This document shows, one piece after another, positions 989-7,269 of a stretch of 7,499 bases of DNA. The first letter of the stretch is position 1. The number at the start of each line of letters is the position of its first letter. The notes below the pieces were generated by a model that was given only the letters and a program-made list of their open reading frames with translations, was not told the origin of the DNA and searched no databases. A program made the position numbers and the translations under genes. Source of the stretch: Candidatus Desantisbacteria bacterium CG1_02_38_46 (GTDB lineage: Bacteria; Desantisbacteria; UBA1551; UBA1559); assembly GCA_001871015.1 (NCBI GenBank), contig MNUO01000031.1, positions 1-7,499 on the forward strand, written 5' to 3'.

Positions 989-2362
989 TCAGGTTTTTCT
1001 AAATATTTCAACTTTCAAAATCTTTTTAGTCCCCTGCGTAACTTTTGCCTCTTCGCTCACCCGATAACCCACAATCCAGATGATTTTTTGCTCAGGAAGC
1101 TGGACTGTTTTCACTCTGGTAATGAGCAGTGGAATCTTTTCTCTCATTTCCCGTGGCACCTTATGGTCAATAAAAAAATCCGATAGTTTCTTTCTTCCAC
1201 TGGCACCCTGTGGGTAAAAATAGTCTCCAATTTTTCTCGTCCTCACAAATAGAGAAAGCCCCACCTTATCTGCATCAAAATAAGCAGTATCATGAGTTGC
1301 ACGATAGGAATGTAACGGTTTATTGTGGTTCAAAATTGTCTTTTTGATTGTGTATTGCCCGGCTTGCTGCAGAGTAATTTTTCCTTTTCGAATGCAAAGA
1401 TTTTCATATTCTTTCTGAGCAATTATTTCCCCTGGTAAATCCAATCTTGAACCTGAAGGTTTCTCATTAATTAAATTCAGTAAATCTTCAATATGCCCAA
1501 AACCCAATTGCAACAAGTCACCCTTGGCTCGGTGAATCGCCTCCCGCAATATCCTGGGTTTAAGAGCGGACGGCACATTTCTAAATTCCTTTATCAGGAG
1601 CATTACATTCCTATCTTTTCCTCTTCTCAAAATGCGAGGCACATACCTTTGCGCTTGAGATTCAAGGTAAAGGTCTTCTTCCTGCAAAATCAAACTTGTG
1701 CGGAAAAGTGTTTCTTTTATATTGGGGTTATAATCCTTGGCAAGTTGTGGTAACAACTCAAGCCGGAGTTTATTGCGCTGGAATACCGGCTCTAAATTTG
1801 AAGAATCCAAACAATAGTCTAATTTGTTTTCCTTTAGATAGGAGAGAATTTCTTCTTTTGAACATTCAATCAAGGGATGAATGTACTTATCATGAACAGG
1901 CAACATCCCTCCAAGTCCTGTATGTCCGCTTCCCCTGAACAAATTCAAAAGAAGCGTTTCAGCCTGGTCATCAAGAGTATGCCCCAGAGCAATTTTGTTG
2001 GCGCCTACTTTTGTAGCAGTCTCATTTAAAAAAGCGTAGCGAACCTCGCGTGCACCTGCTTCAGGTGAAACTTTCTTTTCTTTTATGAAATCCGGCACAT
2101 TTTCGTGTTTAATAAATAGCGGTAAACCAATCCTGTTTGCCAGGTCTCTGACAAAACGCACATCCTTCTCGGCTTCAACAGGGCGAATCATATGGTTGAG
2201 ATGAGCAATATAAAAAGACGTGCCAAATTCACTCTGCAGAGATGTAAGAATATATGCAAGTGTTACTGAATCTGGACCGCCGGAAACACCGATAACAACC
2301 TTATCTTCCTTCCCCAGCATATTGTATTTCTTAATTGTTTTTAAAACCTTTTCTCTCAGCAT
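989..2362 (-). CDS. tilS: tRNA(Ile)-lysidine synthetase TilS
   Basis: TilS uses ATP and lysine to convert C34 of tRNA-Ile(CAU) to lysidine, which switches its decoding from AUG to AUA and its charging from Met to Ile. The 457-residue protein is full length for the two-domain class. The N-terminal PP-loop ATPase motif SGGPDS is at 27-32, followed by HLNH (54-57) and HTLDDQAET (128-136). The C-terminal domain (about 360-455) shows the usual VRTRKIGDYFYP and GRKKLSDFFIDHKVP stretches and an IIWIVGYR strand. The ATG at 2362 gives the expected distance to the P-loop, but no clear Shine-Dalgarno precedes it, because the palindrome array begins 13 bases upstream. It lies between a tRNA gene with a CAU anticodon and ftsH, all in one direction, so all three may share transcripts. 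No frameshift or missing motif is seen. Confidence 0.97.
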   Translation of the reverse strand: MLREKVLKTIKKYNMLGKEDKVVIGVSGGPDSVTLAYILTSLQSEFGTSFYIAHLNHMIRPVEAEKDVRFVRDLANRIGLPLFIKHENVPDFIKEKKVSPEAGAREVRYAFLNETATKVGANKIALGHTLDDQAETLLLNLFRGSGHTGLGGMLPVHDKYIHPLIECSKEEILSYLKENKLDYCLDSSNLEPVFQRNKLRLELLPQLAKDYNPNIKETLFRTSLILQEEDLYLESQAQRYVPRILRRGKDRNVMLLIKEFRNVPSALKPRILREAIHRAKGDLLQLGFGHIEDLLNLINEKPSGSRLDLPGEIIAQKEYENLCIRKGKITLQQAGQYTIKKTILNHNKPLHSYRATHDTAYFDADKVGLSLFVRTRKIGDYFYPQGASGRKKLSDFFIDHKVPREMREKIPLLITRVKTVQLPEQKIIWIVGYRVSEEAKVTQGTKKILKVEIFRKT

Positions 2363-2849: not shown

Positions 2850-3074
2850 TTATTTCAATAGATTTATGAATTCATCCACACTCAGACCTGCGTGTCGAAT
2901 AATGGCTCTCAATGTACCTCTGTCCAGTACTTTGTGGTCTGGGACAACAACTTGAGCAAAAGGTTCGTCGCGACGTAGGATTAGATGACTACCGGCTTGT
3001 CGCTTTAAGTAAAAGTTTGCTCGCTTAAGTGTTTGGGTGCATTCGCGCCCCGAAATCACCGGCAACTTACTCAT
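2850..3074 (-). CDS. hicA: HicA-like toxin (mRNA interferase)
   Basis: This 74-residue protein fits the HicA/YcfA family, small proteins with a double-stranded-RNA-binding-like fold that cleave mRNA when freed from their antitoxin. It starts SKLPVISGRE, has the family pattern FYLKRQAGSHLILRR with the presumed catalytic histidine at 30, and continues with VVVPDHKVLDRGTLRAIIR and a final helix (LSVDEFINLL). Length is normal for the family. The start ATG overlaps the stop of the upstream hicB-like gene by 4 bases, so the two are translationally coupled. The order is antitoxin first, toxin second. No damage is visible. The call rests on recognised family motifs; toxicity is inferred. Confidence 0.9.
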   Translation of the reverse strand: MSKLPVISGRECTQTLKRANFYLKRQAGSHLILRRDEPFAQVVVPDHKVLDRGTLRAIIRHAGLSVDEFINLLK

Positions 3075-3277
3075 ACTACCACCGTTAGAACCTCAAACCG
3101 TTCCTCAGGAACAGATAACCCATCTTCTTTGAGCACAGTAATGTATCCTTCAATAGCTTCGCGAATGTTTTGAATAGCTTCCTCTTTGGTTTTACCTTGA
3201 CTTATACAGCCAGGCAATGTAGGACACTCAACCACCCAGTAACCATCCTCACCAGGATATATTATTACCTCTCGCAT
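3071..3277 (-). CDS. hicB: HicB-like antitoxin, short form
   Basis: This 68-residue protein has the HicB N-terminal partial RNase H fold: a beta strand EVIIYPGEDGYWVVECPTLP, the typical GCISQGKTKEEAIQNI segment, and a helix EAIEGYITVL. HicB proteins neutralise HicA by covering its active site. Many also carry a C-terminal ribbon-helix-helix or HTH domain that represses the operon. None is present here, as the protein ends after FEVLTVVV. A strong Shine-Dalgarno GGGAGG lies 7 bases before the ATG. The gene overlaps the end of the upstream 76-residue gene by 13 bases and the start of hicA by 4. If this short HicB does not bind DNA, another factor would have to autoregulate the locus. Confidence 0.88.
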   Translation of the reverse strand: MREVIIYPGEDGYWVVECPTLPGCISQGKTKEEAIQNIREAIEGYITVLKEDGLSVPEERFEVLTVVV

Positions 3278-3495
3278 TGTTCATCCTCCCTTTCAAAATA
3301 TTTCATTTTATTGTTATGTTCTACATATTTTGTTTCAAGTCCATAAGCAATTAAATGCTGGACTATGCCGCAGACGAGTTCGACAATCGCCACGACATTT
3401 TTCCCTTTTGAATCGGGAAGAAGTTTCTGCAAACTTCGTTCTATCTCTTCGGCTTTGCTCTTATGCCCTTCAGCGTTCATATAATATTCTTCCAT
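3265..3495 (-). CDS. Unrecognised 76-residue protein leading the hicBA locus
   Basis: I do not recognise this protein with confidence. It is a small, charged, largely helical protein: an N-terminal amphipathic helix (KSKAEEIERSLQKLL), then VVAIVELVCGIVQHLIAYGLETKY, and a very polar tail ending EDEQCER. The second helix, with a central His and a following EHN, vaguely recalls small HEPN-type proteins, but no catalytic RxxxxH pattern is complete. It overlaps the hicB-like gene by 13 bases and shares its promoter, so it is probably part of the same unit. The start is uncertain. The ATG at 3495 has no Shine-Dalgarno; the ATG at 3480 has a weak GGAAG 8 bases upstream and would give 71 residues. 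The tail could be a truncation. Confidence 0.7.
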   Translation of the reverse strand: MEEYYMNAEGHKSKAEEIERSLQKLLPDSKGKNVVAIVELVCGIVQHLIAYGLETKYVEHNNKMKYFEREDEQCER

Positions 3496-3717: not shown

Positions 3718-4878
3718 CTAATTGTTCTGCATAGAAGTTATAACTCTGGTTGCCATAAAACCGACTATAAACATTATTAAAGAAGCGGAAATAAAAATCA
3801 TACCAATTCCCCATTTATTCAAAATATATCCATTTAAAAATGTTCCTATTCCACCACCCACAAACATATTAAAAGAAGCTAACGACATAACTGTACCTCT
3901 TAATTTGGGCATAAGTTGCTGGGCAGTTGTCACCAGAGTTGATTGAAAGAAAACAAACGCCAATCCAAATCCAAATAAGGAGACAGAAATTAAAAACGGA
4001 GAATGCCAGAACGATAGGGTTGCCAGAGATGCCCCGCCCAAAACACCAGCCAGCAGAAGAAACCTGTTTCCCATCTTTTGTCTCATTGTGCCAGCTTTTC
4101 TCCCGCCAATTACACTTGCTATGCCAAAGAAAGTTAAAAGCAGCCCGACTATCAGGATATTATAACCCGTTCTGATTTGAATAAACTTACCAGAATAAGT
4201 AAAACTCCCGAAAACACAATAGCCCACAAAGAAGATGATGCTCACTACCTTGAGCAAATCTTTGTTTGCAAAGGCTTGACCGTATACTCTGCCGAAGTTC
4301 AAACTTCCAACAACTCCCGGTCTTTTCTCAAGCATTTTTAACATCATTATTGCAATAATAAGCTCAGCGATTCCGTAAACCAAATATACTAACCGCCAGG
4401 AACCTAAATATGACAATATTCCTCCAATTGCTGTAGCAGATGCCCCGCCCAACATCATCAAACCCATTACTTTCCCTATTGCATTCTGTCTGGATGAATC
4501 GTCAAAACTTTCTCCAATCAGTGCCATTGTAACAGGCAGGATGCCGGCAGCAAAAGCGCCATTTATTCCACGAATGACACAGAGGGATGTAATATCAAAA
4601 GCGGCTGCTCCTAAACAACTAAAAATTGCTGTTCCAAAAGCGGCTATATTAATCACCTTGGTTTTGCCATACCTGTCGCCCAGAGGGCCAAACAATAAAG
4701 TAAACAGCCCAAAAGGTAACATATAAGCGGTGACTGAAAAAGCGGCTCTGCTAATATCTAAATGAAAATCCCTGGCTATATTTAAAAGCAAGGGGGCGGC
4801 AGCGTAATTGTCTCCGTTGCACCAAAAAACCAGAATCCCAAGCAACAAAACCATTTGATTCAAACGATTAGAATTCAT
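3718..4878 (-). CDS. MFS transporter (probable exporter)
   Basis: This is a major facilitator superfamily protein of 386 residues with about 12 hydrophobic helices, the normal size for the family. The hallmark motif A lies between helices 2 and 3 (GPLGDRYGKTK at 64-74). Helix 4 has RGINGAFAAG (103-112), resembling the proton-coupling motif B of drug-type exporters. The substrate cannot be read from sequence, and it does not resemble the arsenite carriers ArsB or Acr3. It is the last gene of a unit that starts with an ArsR-type regulator and a Cys-rich protein, so a metal, metalloid or thiol-conjugate exporter is a reasonable inference. The ATG at 4878 is chosen because GGAGG (4884-4888) lies 5 bases upstream; an in-frame TTG at 4890 would place the Shine-Dalgarno inside the gene. 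A terminator follows 118 bases downstream. Confidence 0.92.
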   Translation of the reverse strand: MNSNRLNQMVLLLGILVFWCNGDNYAAAPLLLNIARDFHLDISRAAFSVTAYMLPFGLFTLLFGPLGDRYGKTKVINIAAFGTAIFSCLGAAAFDITSLCVIRGINGAFAAGILPVTMALIGESFDDSSRQNAIGKVMGLMMLGGASATAIGGILSYLGSWRLVYLVYGIAELIIAIMMLKMLEKRPGVVGSLNFGRVYGQAFANKDLLKVVSIIFFVGYCVFGSFTYSGKFIQIRTGYNILIVGLLLTFFGIASVIGGRKAGTMRQKMGNRFLLLAGVLGGASLATLSFWHSPFLISVSLFGFGLAFVFFQSTLVTTAQQLMPKLRGTVMSLASFNMFVGGGIGTFLNGYILNKWGIGMIFISASLIMFIVGFMATRVITSMQNN

Positions 4879-4944: not shown

Positions 4945-5148
4945 CTATTCACTTTTAGTTCCTTTAAGATGTTCTTCCACGGCGGCAAGTTCCTTTTTAA
5001 GCTGGTCCTTGTATTTTTCTAGCTGTTCCTGTTCTTCTTTGGCAGATACAAAACGCCGCAGGAAAGGTCCACACCCGCACCCACAACGGCCAGAAGTATG
5101 ACCCCCGTGCCCAAAACCTCTTTCGTTCCCACCTGGTTCGCAGCACAT
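4945..5148 (-). CDS. Small Cys/His-rich protein with coiled-coil tail
   Basis: This is a 67-residue protein I cannot assign to a named family. The N-terminal third is a flexible Gly/Cys/His region: Cys 2 and 3, HGGH at 14-17, and CGCGC at 22-26. After a short PFLRRF linker comes a heptad-like helix (about 36-62: EEQEQLEKYKDQLKKELAAV). This suggests a cytoplasmic soft-metal ligand held by a coiled coil. The CxCGC plus coiled-coil segment (22-63) aligns without gaps to residues 90-131 of the ArsR-type regulator encoded just upstream, with 15 identities in 42 positions including KYK. The start at 5148 is chosen for the Shine-Dalgarno GGAGGTGA 5 bases before the ATG; the in-frame GTG at 5157 lies within that site. 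A perfect inverted repeat upstream is the likely operator, and the MFS gene follows. It might be a metallochaperone for the exporter or a modulator of the regulator. Confidence 0.85.
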   Translation of the reverse strand: MCCEPGGNERGFGHGGHTSGRCGCGCGPFLRRFVSAKEEQEQLEKYKDQLKKELAAVEEHLKGTKSE

Positions 5149-5171
5149 TTTTATCACCTCCCTTGGTCCAA

Positions 5172-5199
5172 TAGTTTAAGTAGTTGTTAAACTACTTAA
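5172..5199. promoter_or_regulatory. Probable ArsR-type operator
   Basis: The perfect inverted repeat TTAAGTAGTT (5176-5185) and AACTACTTAA (5190-5199) has a 4-base centre. A second overlapping dyad is TAGTTTAA (5172-5179) and TTAAACTA (5187-5194). It lies in the 67-base gap after the regulator gene, 24 bases before the ATG of the Cys-rich protein and just upstream of its Shine-Dalgarno. Such long AT-rich dyads are typical of winged-helix dimer repressors. Position and symmetry suggest that the neighbouring ArsR-type protein binds here to control the small protein and the MFS gene. Confidence 0.75.
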
Positions 5200-5215
5200 T
5201 TAAATTCTAAAAAAA

Positions 5216-5632
5216 TTATTTGGTATTTTTACCCTTTATTTCCGAGATTCTCTTTTCAACATCCCCCAATTCCATTTCTAATTCTTTCTTGTATTTTGTA
5301 AGAGACACCAGACTTAATTTTTTCTGGTTTTCAAATCTGCATGTCCCCTTACATCCGCACCTGCAAATTTCATTTACTATAAGTCGGCAATCCTCCATTG
5401 CCCCCCCGTCTATTGAATACGGTATCCAGTATCCCTTTCGTGCGCTACTGACAAGGCCGGCCTGCTTTAGCACCTTTAAATGTTGCGATACTGCAGCGGG
5501 GGTTATCCCAAGTGCTTCAGCGATATTTTTCGCGCCCAATGACCCCCTTGATTTTAAAAGTTCAATTATTTTAATCCGTGTCTCTACAGACAACACCTTA
5601 AATATTTCTGAAGAATCCAATCTTACTTTCAT
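5216..5632 (-). CDS. ArsR-family repressor with extra Cys cluster and coiled-coil tail
   Basis: This is a 138-residue winged-helix regulator. The HTH is clear: TRIKIIELL (18-26), KNIAEALGITPAAVSQHLKVLKQAGLV (35-61) and the wing ARKGYWIPYSI (64-74). Most ArsR/SmtB repressors are dimers that leave DNA when metal or another effector binds. The classical ELCVC metal site in the helix before the recognition helix is absent (GAKNIAEALG here). Instead cysteines cluster after the wing, at 82, 90, 92, 94 and 98 (CRCGCKGTC), followed by a charged helix (about 104-133). This tail makes the protein longer than a minimal ArsR domain and is copied in the small protein encoded next. The effector is inferred to bind these cysteines. 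The Shine-Dalgarno GGAG is 13 bases before the ATG, which is long, and a half-site-like TAAACTA lies between them, hinting at autorepression. It follows the DsrE gene by 39 bases. Confidence 0.93.
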   Translation of the reverse strand: MKVRLDSSEIFKVLSVETRIKIIELLKSRGSLGAKNIAEALGITPAAVSQHLKVLKQAGLVSSARKGYWIPYSIDGGAMEDCRLIVNEICRCGCKGTCRFENQKKLSLVSLTKYKKELEMELGDVEKRISEIKGKNTK

Positions 5633-5671: not shown

Positions 5672-5992
5672 TCAGAAAGTTACCACCTTGTCGCTTTCTT
5701 TTACAATCTCATAAAAATCTTTCATTGTGTTTATTGTACACATTTCGGTTCCTTCCTGGTTCCGGGATTTAATACATGTTCCACAGACTAATATTTTACC
5801 ACCGGATTGCAGAAATTTATCCGCCTGCTCAATCGTGTTGAATTTTTCCGTGCTTATTGACTGATACTCAACACCTTTGCCCATAAGGAAAACCTTAACT
5901 TCATCTTTCTGTCCAAGGCAAAAATTTGCATACCGCAATGCATTCCAGCATGTTTCAGCATCATTGCTTGAAATAACAACTCCTATTTTCAT
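5672..5992 (-). CDS. DsrE-family sulfur-carrier-like protein
   Basis: This is a 106-residue protein of the DsrE/DsrEF-like fold, small cytoplasmic proteins that carry or relay sulfane sulfur on a conserved cysteine. Visible features are the opening strand MKIGVVISSNDAETCWNALR, strand VKVFLMGKGV (32-41), the helix region EQADKFLQSGG, and the family's redox or persulfide motif VCGTCIKSR with Cys 70 and 73. Other cysteines are at 15, 25 and 85. The start at 5992 is chosen because AGAGG lies 6 bases upstream and the strand fits the family start. An upstream in-frame start at 6109 would add 39 residues with no family character. It lies 131 bases after the methyltransferase-type gene and 39 bases before the ArsR-type gene. 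This points to reactive sulfur or thiol chemistry in the cassette, by inference. Confidence 0.9.
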   Translation of the reverse strand: MKIGVVISSNDAETCWNALRYANFCLGQKDEVKVFLMGKGVEYQSISTEKFNTIEQADKFLQSGGKILVCGTCIKSRNQEGTEMCTINTMKDFYEIVKESDKVVTF

Positions 5993-6123
5993 ATTGAGCC
6001 TCTTTTGATTAAGTATTTTAATAATGATTTTCGCACTTGTCGGCAAAGATTGAAAAAGGCCATCGCTTGTGTAGAACGAAAATATGAGTTCTTGAAAACG
6101 CAAACCCAATCAAAATAAAACCT

Positions 6124-7269
6124 CTAAATAGCCGGTGTCGGCACATCACCCCAGGCCGTTGCCTTCTCAACTTCTTTCATGTTTATTATTTCGCCCGTCT
6201 GTACATTTATGTCAATGAACCCGACGGGTTTTCTTACAATATTAAAAGAAAGCGACGCTTTTCCTGATACGCGTTTGTTATGATTGTCTTCTATTTGTAT
6301 AAATACGATCCTCCGATAAGGACAGTCTTTGCAATCCATATATTCCCGATCAATTCCGATAGGGCAGTGATGCCTTCTTGCCATTACCGGATCTACGTTA
6401 TGCATTTTTGCCATATGTAAGGCAGGGGATGCCCTTAAATGACTAAAGGGATGAAATACCCATTCGCTTATCATCGCCAGTGTGTGGTTTTTTTTATATA
6501 AATGAAAATCGCTGCCGGTATTTGCTATCATACCCTGCATTATATAATCCGCCGGCATCAAATAACCCAAGTAATATTTCCCTTCCTGGATAAAACTTAT
6601 TTTACTATATGCAGTATTTGAAATACCATCGAGTGATTTTATACAATCCTCATTATCTTCAGGAAGGATAGAAACAAGGGTAATGTTATCCCGGGCATCA
6701 AAATGAAGCTGGTTAAGAGTAATTGTCCTTAGAATAAAACCAATGCCTATTGTCACCGTTACGGCAATCAACGGGATCAAGAGATATTTAACCTTGGTAT
6801 CAGGGATTAGTTTCGTAAAAGATTTTTCAATAAATTTTGGAAAGAACATACCTGTTTTGTCCATGTAGGGTGCGTACGTTTCCCCATATTGTCGAAGCAT
6901 TCTTCTTTCCTCATCTTTTGCAAGAAAATAATAAAGGATAAACATAAGGGATAACGAGGCAAGGACTAAGAATCTCGGCCACAGGATGGCCATTCCAATA
7001 CCCCATATTCCAAGAGCCAGATACTGGGGATGACGGATATATGAGTATAGTCCTTTGATGGCTACCCCCCGGCGGAATATTTTATTCAAATAAACATGGG
7101 AAGCACAGATTAAAAAGGCCAGAGCGCCAACTATAAATAACATTGAACCTGATATGCGGATTGCTTTCAAAAACAATGTTGGAGGCAAAATCATATGGGG
7201 CAAGAAAAACGCTGTCAGCCATCTTGTTATGGTATACTGGTCAAACCATCTAAATATAGGATTAAACAC
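6124..7269 (-). CDS. PEMT/ICMT-type membrane methyltransferase with unrecognised Cys/His C-terminal domain
   Basis: This is a 381-residue fusion. Residues about 35-142 match the integral-membrane methyltransferases of the phospholipid N-methyltransferase and isoprenylcysteine carboxyl methyltransferase group: GLYSYIRHPQYLALGIWGIG (73-92), two further helices, then KDEERRMLRQYGETYAPYM with the SAM-site Glu pair at 120-121. A membrane helix at about 161-185 leads to roughly 195 residues I do not recognise. These include VFHPFSH (271-277) and a cluster with His 300-301, Cys 302, 313 and 316 (CKDCPYRR), which could bind metal or heme. The substrate is unknown. The start is weak: GTG at 7269 is the first start after an in-frame stop, has no Shine-Dalgarno, and overlaps the end of a 23-codon reading frame. 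Insertion-sequence DNA lies just upstream, so the original N-terminus or promoter may have been replaced. It probably leads the DsrE/ArsR genes. Confidence 0.85.
   Translation of the reverse strand: MFNPIFRWFDQYTITRWLTAFFLPHMILPPTLFLKAIRISGSMLFIVGALAFLICASHVYLNKIFRRGVAIKGLYSYIRHPQYLALGIWGIGMAILWPRFLVLASLSLMFILYYFLAKDEERRMLRQYGETYAPYMDKTGMFFPKFIEKSFTKLIPDTKVKYLLIPLIAVTVTIGIGFILRTITLNQLHFDARDNITLVSILPEDNEDCIKSLDGISNTAYSKISFIQEGKYYLGYLMPADYIMQGMIANTGSDFHLYKKNHTLAMISEWVFHPFSHLRASPALHMAKMHNVDPVMARRHHCPIGIDREYMDCKDCPYRRIVFIQIEDNHNKRVSGKASLSFNIVRKPVGFIDINVQTGEIINMKEVEKATAWGDVPTPAI

Follow-up and report, generated by a model that had tools for sequence, protein, structure and literature searches.

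A tandem ArsR repressor and small cysteine-rich protein that share a predicted coil module, with a putative second operator between their genes

In the SmtB/SmtA system, an ArsR/SmtB repressor controls a metallothionein through an imperfect inverted repeat. The AzuR/NmtA pair likewise consists of an ArsR/SmtB repressor that controls a small metal-binding cysteine protein by means of an imperfect inverted repeat (PMC8790569). The AfArsR repressor of Acidithiobacillus ferrooxidans has a type 2 As(III) site, made up of C95, C96, and C102, at the end of its C-terminal dimerisation helix (PMC11868830). ArsR can also act as a roadblock to RNA polymerase, and engineered biosensors show less background when a further ArsR site is placed behind arsR (PMC3918153, PMC10310618).

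The locus described here lies in a stretch of 7,499 nucleotides from Candidatus Desantisbacteria bacterium CG1_02_38_46 (contig MNUO01000031.1), which we call the window. The gene order on the minus strand is a DsrE-like gene, arsR, a small gene, and an MFS transporter gene. The DsrE-like gene (5672–5992; Pfam DsrE, 5e-10), which comes first in the unit, encodes a DsrE/DsrF-like small sulfur-relay protein, and its start was set at an internal ATG directly after the upstream operator. The arsR gene (5216–5632) encodes an ArsR-family repressor of 138 aa (HTH_5, 9.9e-14; NCBIfam HTH_metalloreg, 1.7e-23, above the cut-off). The small gene (4945–5148) starts with an ATG preceded by GGGAGGTGAT and encodes a Cys/His-rich protein of 67 aa with a CGCGC motif and a C-terminal coil, as seen in its sequence and with the family profile A3. 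The two genes are likely to be on a single transcript, and the MFS transporter gene (3718–4878; Pfam MFS_1, 7.4e-45), which follows after a gap of about 65 nt, is probably co-transcribed with the small gene. The arrangement is like SmtB/SmtA and AzuR/NmtA in that a repressor is combined with a small cysteine protein, for which metal binding is here predicted. It differs from both in that the α5 His/Asp site is missing and that the small protein is short and coiled, is encoded in the same direction behind arsR, and shares the tail module of the repressor. Our reading of the open-access literature found no ArsR accompanied by a small cysteine-rich coil protein.

Elsewhere in the window, the segment 6124–7269 is an ORF whose N-terminal domain is isoprenylcysteine-methyltransferase-like and whose long C-terminal part has no match. 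Genes for a HicA toxin and a HicB antitoxin (2850–3277) adjoin a 76-aa ORF (3265–3495). Two intergenic stretches (811–975 and 2375–2518), on either side of a tilS-like gene, contain 28-nt units with the palindrome GCAGAGTTTACTCTGC (GTAGTGGCAGAGTTTACTCTGCTATTTT), and a tRNA-Met (2506–2582) comes after the second of these.

The first-pass annotation stated that the classical ArsR metal site is missing from the repressor, and inspection agrees. The R773/E. coli-type α3 motif C32-x-C34-xx-C37 is absent, there being no Cys before C82, and so are the SmtB-type α5 Zn ligands D-x-H...H-xx-E, as α5 has no His. The motif C90-x-C92-G-C94 (5351–5365, minus strand) forms, together with C82, a conserved Cys set, C82-x7-C90-x-C92-x-C94, at the end of α5. 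Relatives came from a related-locus search, which gave L003 (65% identical), and from profile searches that covered 386 genomes from across the domain. An alignment of 17 relatives shows no change at C82 or C90 and almost none at C92 or C94; 13 have a coil behind CxCGC, and the remaining four end directly after it. At one locus, L115, the CxCGC has been lost from the ArsR and the small protein alike. An AF2 model of the repressor, built from the window and L003 sequences and of moderate quality, with low confidence at the cysteines, has a helix at residues 76–91, a linker holding most of the cysteines, and a second helix at 108–134. This last helix (5231–5311, minus strand) is the predicted C-terminal coil, and it matches the coil profile of the small proteins. 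Among plasmids, a tblastn search returned, in the matches listed, other ArsRs only, all less than 41% identical, and a scan of viral contigs gave three weak matches confined to the DNA-binding helix. Loci L073 (1718–3292) and L039 (3762–5273) each have one long ORF in which, judging by the sequence, an ArsM-like methyltransferase seems to be fused to a C-terminal ArsR domain, the reverse of the ArsRM order.

The proposal that this tail is the sensor is plausible, given that the Cys set is nearly invariant in the 17 relatives and lies at the α5 end, like the As(III) cysteines of AfArsR. The two repressors have in common the ArsR fold (PDB 6j05 aligns to P0002 13–97), and the window protein is predicted to resemble AfArsR in having its cysteines where the dimerisation helix ends. 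In contrast to the CC-x5-C of AfArsR, the window ArsR has C-x7-CxCGC, and it also has the extra coil tail and the small Cys/His protein as a partner.

The similarity of this tail to the small protein, noticed in the initial reading, is borne out. Residues 90–131 of the ArsR align without gaps to residues 22–63 of the small protein, with 15 identities in 42 positions as had been counted and a BLOSUM62 score of 59. When the alignment is extended the score is 64, a value reached by none of 5000 shuffles of the full small protein (maximum 53) and by none of 5000 in which the Cys and coil parts were kept apart (maximum 61). Most of the signal comes from the coil (residues 36–63 of the small protein, 4960–5043, minus strand), which is significant alone in shuffles (P = 0.0004); the Cys part, which includes C22-G-C24-G-C26 (5071–5085, minus strand), gives P = 0.10 alone and is not significant. 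The similarity also stays above background once homologues are aligned, with the coil profiles matching at 95.8% probability and a score of 39.9, whereas 100 column shuffles reach 17.4 at most and the reversed profile scores 14.5. When 5814 ORFs from 930 kb of DNA were searched with a model of the ArsR tail, the ArsRs ranked highest, followed by small proteins of the coil family; the sole further match was a remote candidate in L073. In the same 930 kb the strict pattern L..Y...L..E[LI].. matches 26 ORFs, almost all of which are coil-tailed ArsRs and small proteins. On these sequence comparisons, the ArsR coil tail and the small-protein coil appear to be one module.

Two details of the first description have to be modified. 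The spacing of 20 residues from the last Cys to Tyr is exact in the window (C94–Y114 and C26–Y46); it is not conserved, because the linker between CxCGC and coil varies among ArsR homologues, and a homologous register is rejected. The identity of the spacing in the two window proteins thus seems to be partly coincidental. The heptad pattern ascribed to both coils fits less well than an 11-residue rhythm of hydrophobic positions (0, 3, 7, 11, 14, 18, and 21), in which position 3 is a conserved Tyr and position 10 a conserved Glu.

The small protein has five Cys in its 67 residues, including CC and CGCGC, and no Pfam metallothionein match. The sequence RRFxSxEE..LExYK is steady across its family, for which there is no NCBIfam model and no curated Pfam name. 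The window protein resembles DUF5320 in being a small protein with a C-terminal coil, at 20.7–21 bits, below the Pfam gathering cut-off of 27, and such weak matches are found for three of 11 family members. It differs from DUF5320 in its Cys/His-rich N-terminus and in having RRFxS.

It had been asked whether the pair is found together in other genomes, and it is. A coil-type Cys/His-rich small protein is encoded directly downstream of a coil-tailed ArsR in at least 10 genomes of nine families, the window's included (the window, L108, L109, L110, L111 with two copies, L112, L113, L114, L115, and L116). The small-protein profile matches at least 20 of the 386 genomes: at least 10 beside an ArsR of the type described here, two beside another ArsR, one beside a PadR gene, and the rest elsewhere, counts that are lower bounds since the census scored the best first-look candidates per genome. 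Phylum-level searches were small, covering two genomes for the window's phylum, three for G025, one for G033, seven for G243, and 24 for G065. More broadly, a Cys-rich small ORF stands directly behind the CxCGC-type ArsR in nearly all relatives. Three coil-tailed ArsRs (L003, L121, and L122) have instead a short CGCGC peptide without a coil, and the coil-less ArsRs of L118, L119, L120, L153, and L161 are also followed by such a peptide. Behind the L117 ArsR no small Cys ORF was recognised. In L112, a 21-residue ORF, MAEKKKKAKKKSCDCGCLGTK (6570–6635), encodes a CDCGC peptide behind arsR and the second operator, and a separate coil-type small gene comes next.

The idea that the small protein is a recently detached copy of the tail is not well supported: coils of the same locus are only slightly more alike than coils of different loci (P = 0.04), and in L003, the closest relative, the Cys peptide lacks a coil. 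A further possibility, to which we give a little under even odds, is that the coil is a common dimerisation module gained separately by each, and that the small protein is a metal buffer without any contact with the repressor. The near-equality of same-locus and cross-locus coils speaks for separate gain, as do the three coil-tailed ArsRs that adjoin a coil-less Cys peptide. It is also favoured by coil-type small proteins that lie away from such an ArsR, beside Mrp-type ATPase, fumarase, or PadR genes. Against separate gain stands the association of coil small proteins with 10 of 13 coil-tailed ArsRs and none of five others (Fisher P = 0.007), although it reflects few events, as the ArsR tree requires only about four label changes.

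What is new here is a pair of putative operators, one at the promoter of the repressor gene and a second that separates arsR from the small gene, in a stretch where no sigma-70 promoter could be detected. A sigma-70-like promoter, CCGACA-17-TAAAAT (6015–6043, minus strand; 9/12 matches), stands before the dsrE-like gene and arsR, with a score that alone is not above shuffles. It overlaps the putative upstream operator (6004–6024, minus strand), a degenerate TTAAGTA/TACTTAA inverted repeat with the core TTATTAAAATACTTAA that agrees with 11 of 14 consensus positions and is 86% complementary to an arm at 5184–5204. An inverted-repeat operator is present at the unit's own promoter; in the window it is degenerate and lies before dsrE. 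The putative second operator (5176–5199), in the interval between arsR and the small gene, is a perfect 24-bp inverted repeat, TTAAGTAGTT-4-AACTACTTAA, of a kind expected 0.03 times by chance in the window. The arsR stop codon is followed immediately by a T7 tract (5209–5215, minus strand). In the window genome, a search for further sites with the 16-base operator core, allowing one mismatch, gave two places compared with five for a backwards control, and none can be claimed as part of a wider regulon.

Relatives have the same pair of operators, one at the arsR promoter, directly behind a near-perfect sigma-70 −10 box in most of them, and the other in the interval between arsR and the small gene. 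With leave-one-out matrices made from the promoter operators of the other loci, the second operator was recovered in 14 of 15 loci (P ≤ 0.04 each; combined P 1e-18). It is missing from L110, L111, and L116 because the small gene abuts arsR. A run of at least five Ts occurs in 16 of 17 tandem loci (5–9 T; T7–T9 in 14), L114 having the second operator without a T-run; for comparison, among 787 control ORFs five have a T7 near the stop codon, and one of these five is an arsR of this kind. The T-run begins 0–14 nt past the arsR stop and ends 9–10 nt before the second operator in all 16 T-run loci. The matrix used for this spacing was trained on 14 sites chosen by eye, and in L142, L161, and L091, which are outside the training set, the distances are 10, 9, and 9 nt. 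From the end of the second operator to the small start codon the distance is 11–243 nt, and since it varies in this way, the T-run belongs with the operator and not with translation of the small gene. The T-run is rejected as part of a general intrinsic terminator, since most loci have no hairpin abutting it and none was found in the window. In L091 of G060 (1391–1794, minus strand), an ArsR without the CxCGC tail has the same stretch of T6, 9 nt, and operator, followed by a small Cys-rich ORF and a gene for an ABC ATPase; the element is therefore wider than the CxCGC-tailed ArsR subfamily.

The second operator might be explained by a separate small-gene promoter, weak or not of the sigma-70 type, of which the T-run would be a part. 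In some loci the last Ts and the bases that follow do look like a −35 box, for example, TTGCCA in L109. However, at the second site the highest sigma-70 scores have a mean of 7.2/12, no better than shuffles, compared with 10.2 at the arsR promoters, and the T-run keeps its 9–10 nt to the operator and not to the small start codon. We therefore consider such a promoter improbable. In the window, too, no minus-strand promoter was found between 5149 and 5215, so that the operator lies within the presumed transcribed unit and has no detectable promoter of its own. A repressor site in that position would therefore act on the elongating polymerase. The window arrangement has the same plan as the engineered arsenic biosensors, in which an operator at the promoter and another behind arsR work against leaky read-through. 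It differs from them in being natural, in being conserved across families, and in having a T-run at a fixed distance. By this analogy, we propose that the cassette may be a natural form of the engineered double-operator ArsR roadblock.

The ligand is most likely a soft metal or metalloid. Neighbouring genes in relatives encode ArsP permease halves, CopD, TauE, and a DsbD_2-type membrane protein, and since these neighbouring transporters differ among genomes, no single ligand is fixed by them. Locus L122 also contains a fluoride riboswitch (10701–10765). Instead of a metal, the repressor might sense reactive sulfur or the redox state, and persulfide would then be handled by DsrE and the small protein, a reading suggested by DsrE being the first gene of the window unit and by the TauE and DsbD-like membrane proteins beside some relatives. 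It is made unlikely by the relatives examined, none of which was seen to have DsrE beside it while others adjoin CopD and ArsP, and by the three CxCGC cysteines and His-rich partners, which suit the binding of a soft metal.

We favour, with a probability of roughly 0.55, the view that the repressor responds to a soft metal or metalloid through a C-terminal Cys site like that of AfArsR, and that it controls a metallothionein-like partner in two ways, by blocking the promoter and by a roadblock. With C82-x7-CxCGC, where the dimerisation helix ends, the repressor would sense a metal or metalloid that favours thiols (As(III), Sb(III), or Cu(I), for example), and ions of this kind would also be bound by the small Cys/His-rich protein. 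In the absence of ligand, the repressor would occupy the promoter operator and the second operator just behind arsR. The latter would halt the elongating RNA polymerase in or near the T-tract, and this roadblock would keep the leaky transcription that makes the repressor out of the small gene. Given the 9–10 bp from T-run to second operator, a polymerase with its active site at the last T might clash with the bound repressor; it may also stop earlier in the T-run. We suppose that the T-run could help the halted polymerase to release. With ligand, both blocks would lift, and the small protein and the product of the gene behind it, in the window the MFS transporter, would be made. Against this view count the loci that lack the second operator (L110, L111, and L116) or the T-run (L114), the loss of CxCGC in L115, and the variety of the neighbouring transporters.

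The coils of the ArsR and of the small protein would each probably dimerise. A mixed coil contact between them, put forward in the initial reading along with competition for the ligand, is possible and would allow the small protein to take the ion from the repressor. It is tempting to go further and to suggest that the small protein docks on the repressor by the shared coil, removes the ion, and so resets the repressor. The T-run and second operator would then form a natural, ligand-gated roadblock terminator, and the small gene would stay off as long as the repressor carries no ligand. This extended scheme is speculative, and we regard it as rather doubtful.

If the proposed mechanism is true, the sensor and the ion-binding product share one domain, and the product could then reset its sensor directly. 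Bacteria would also have evolved the same double operator that engineers put into arsenic biosensors. The fixed distance between T-run and operator makes roadblock-assisted termination directly testable.
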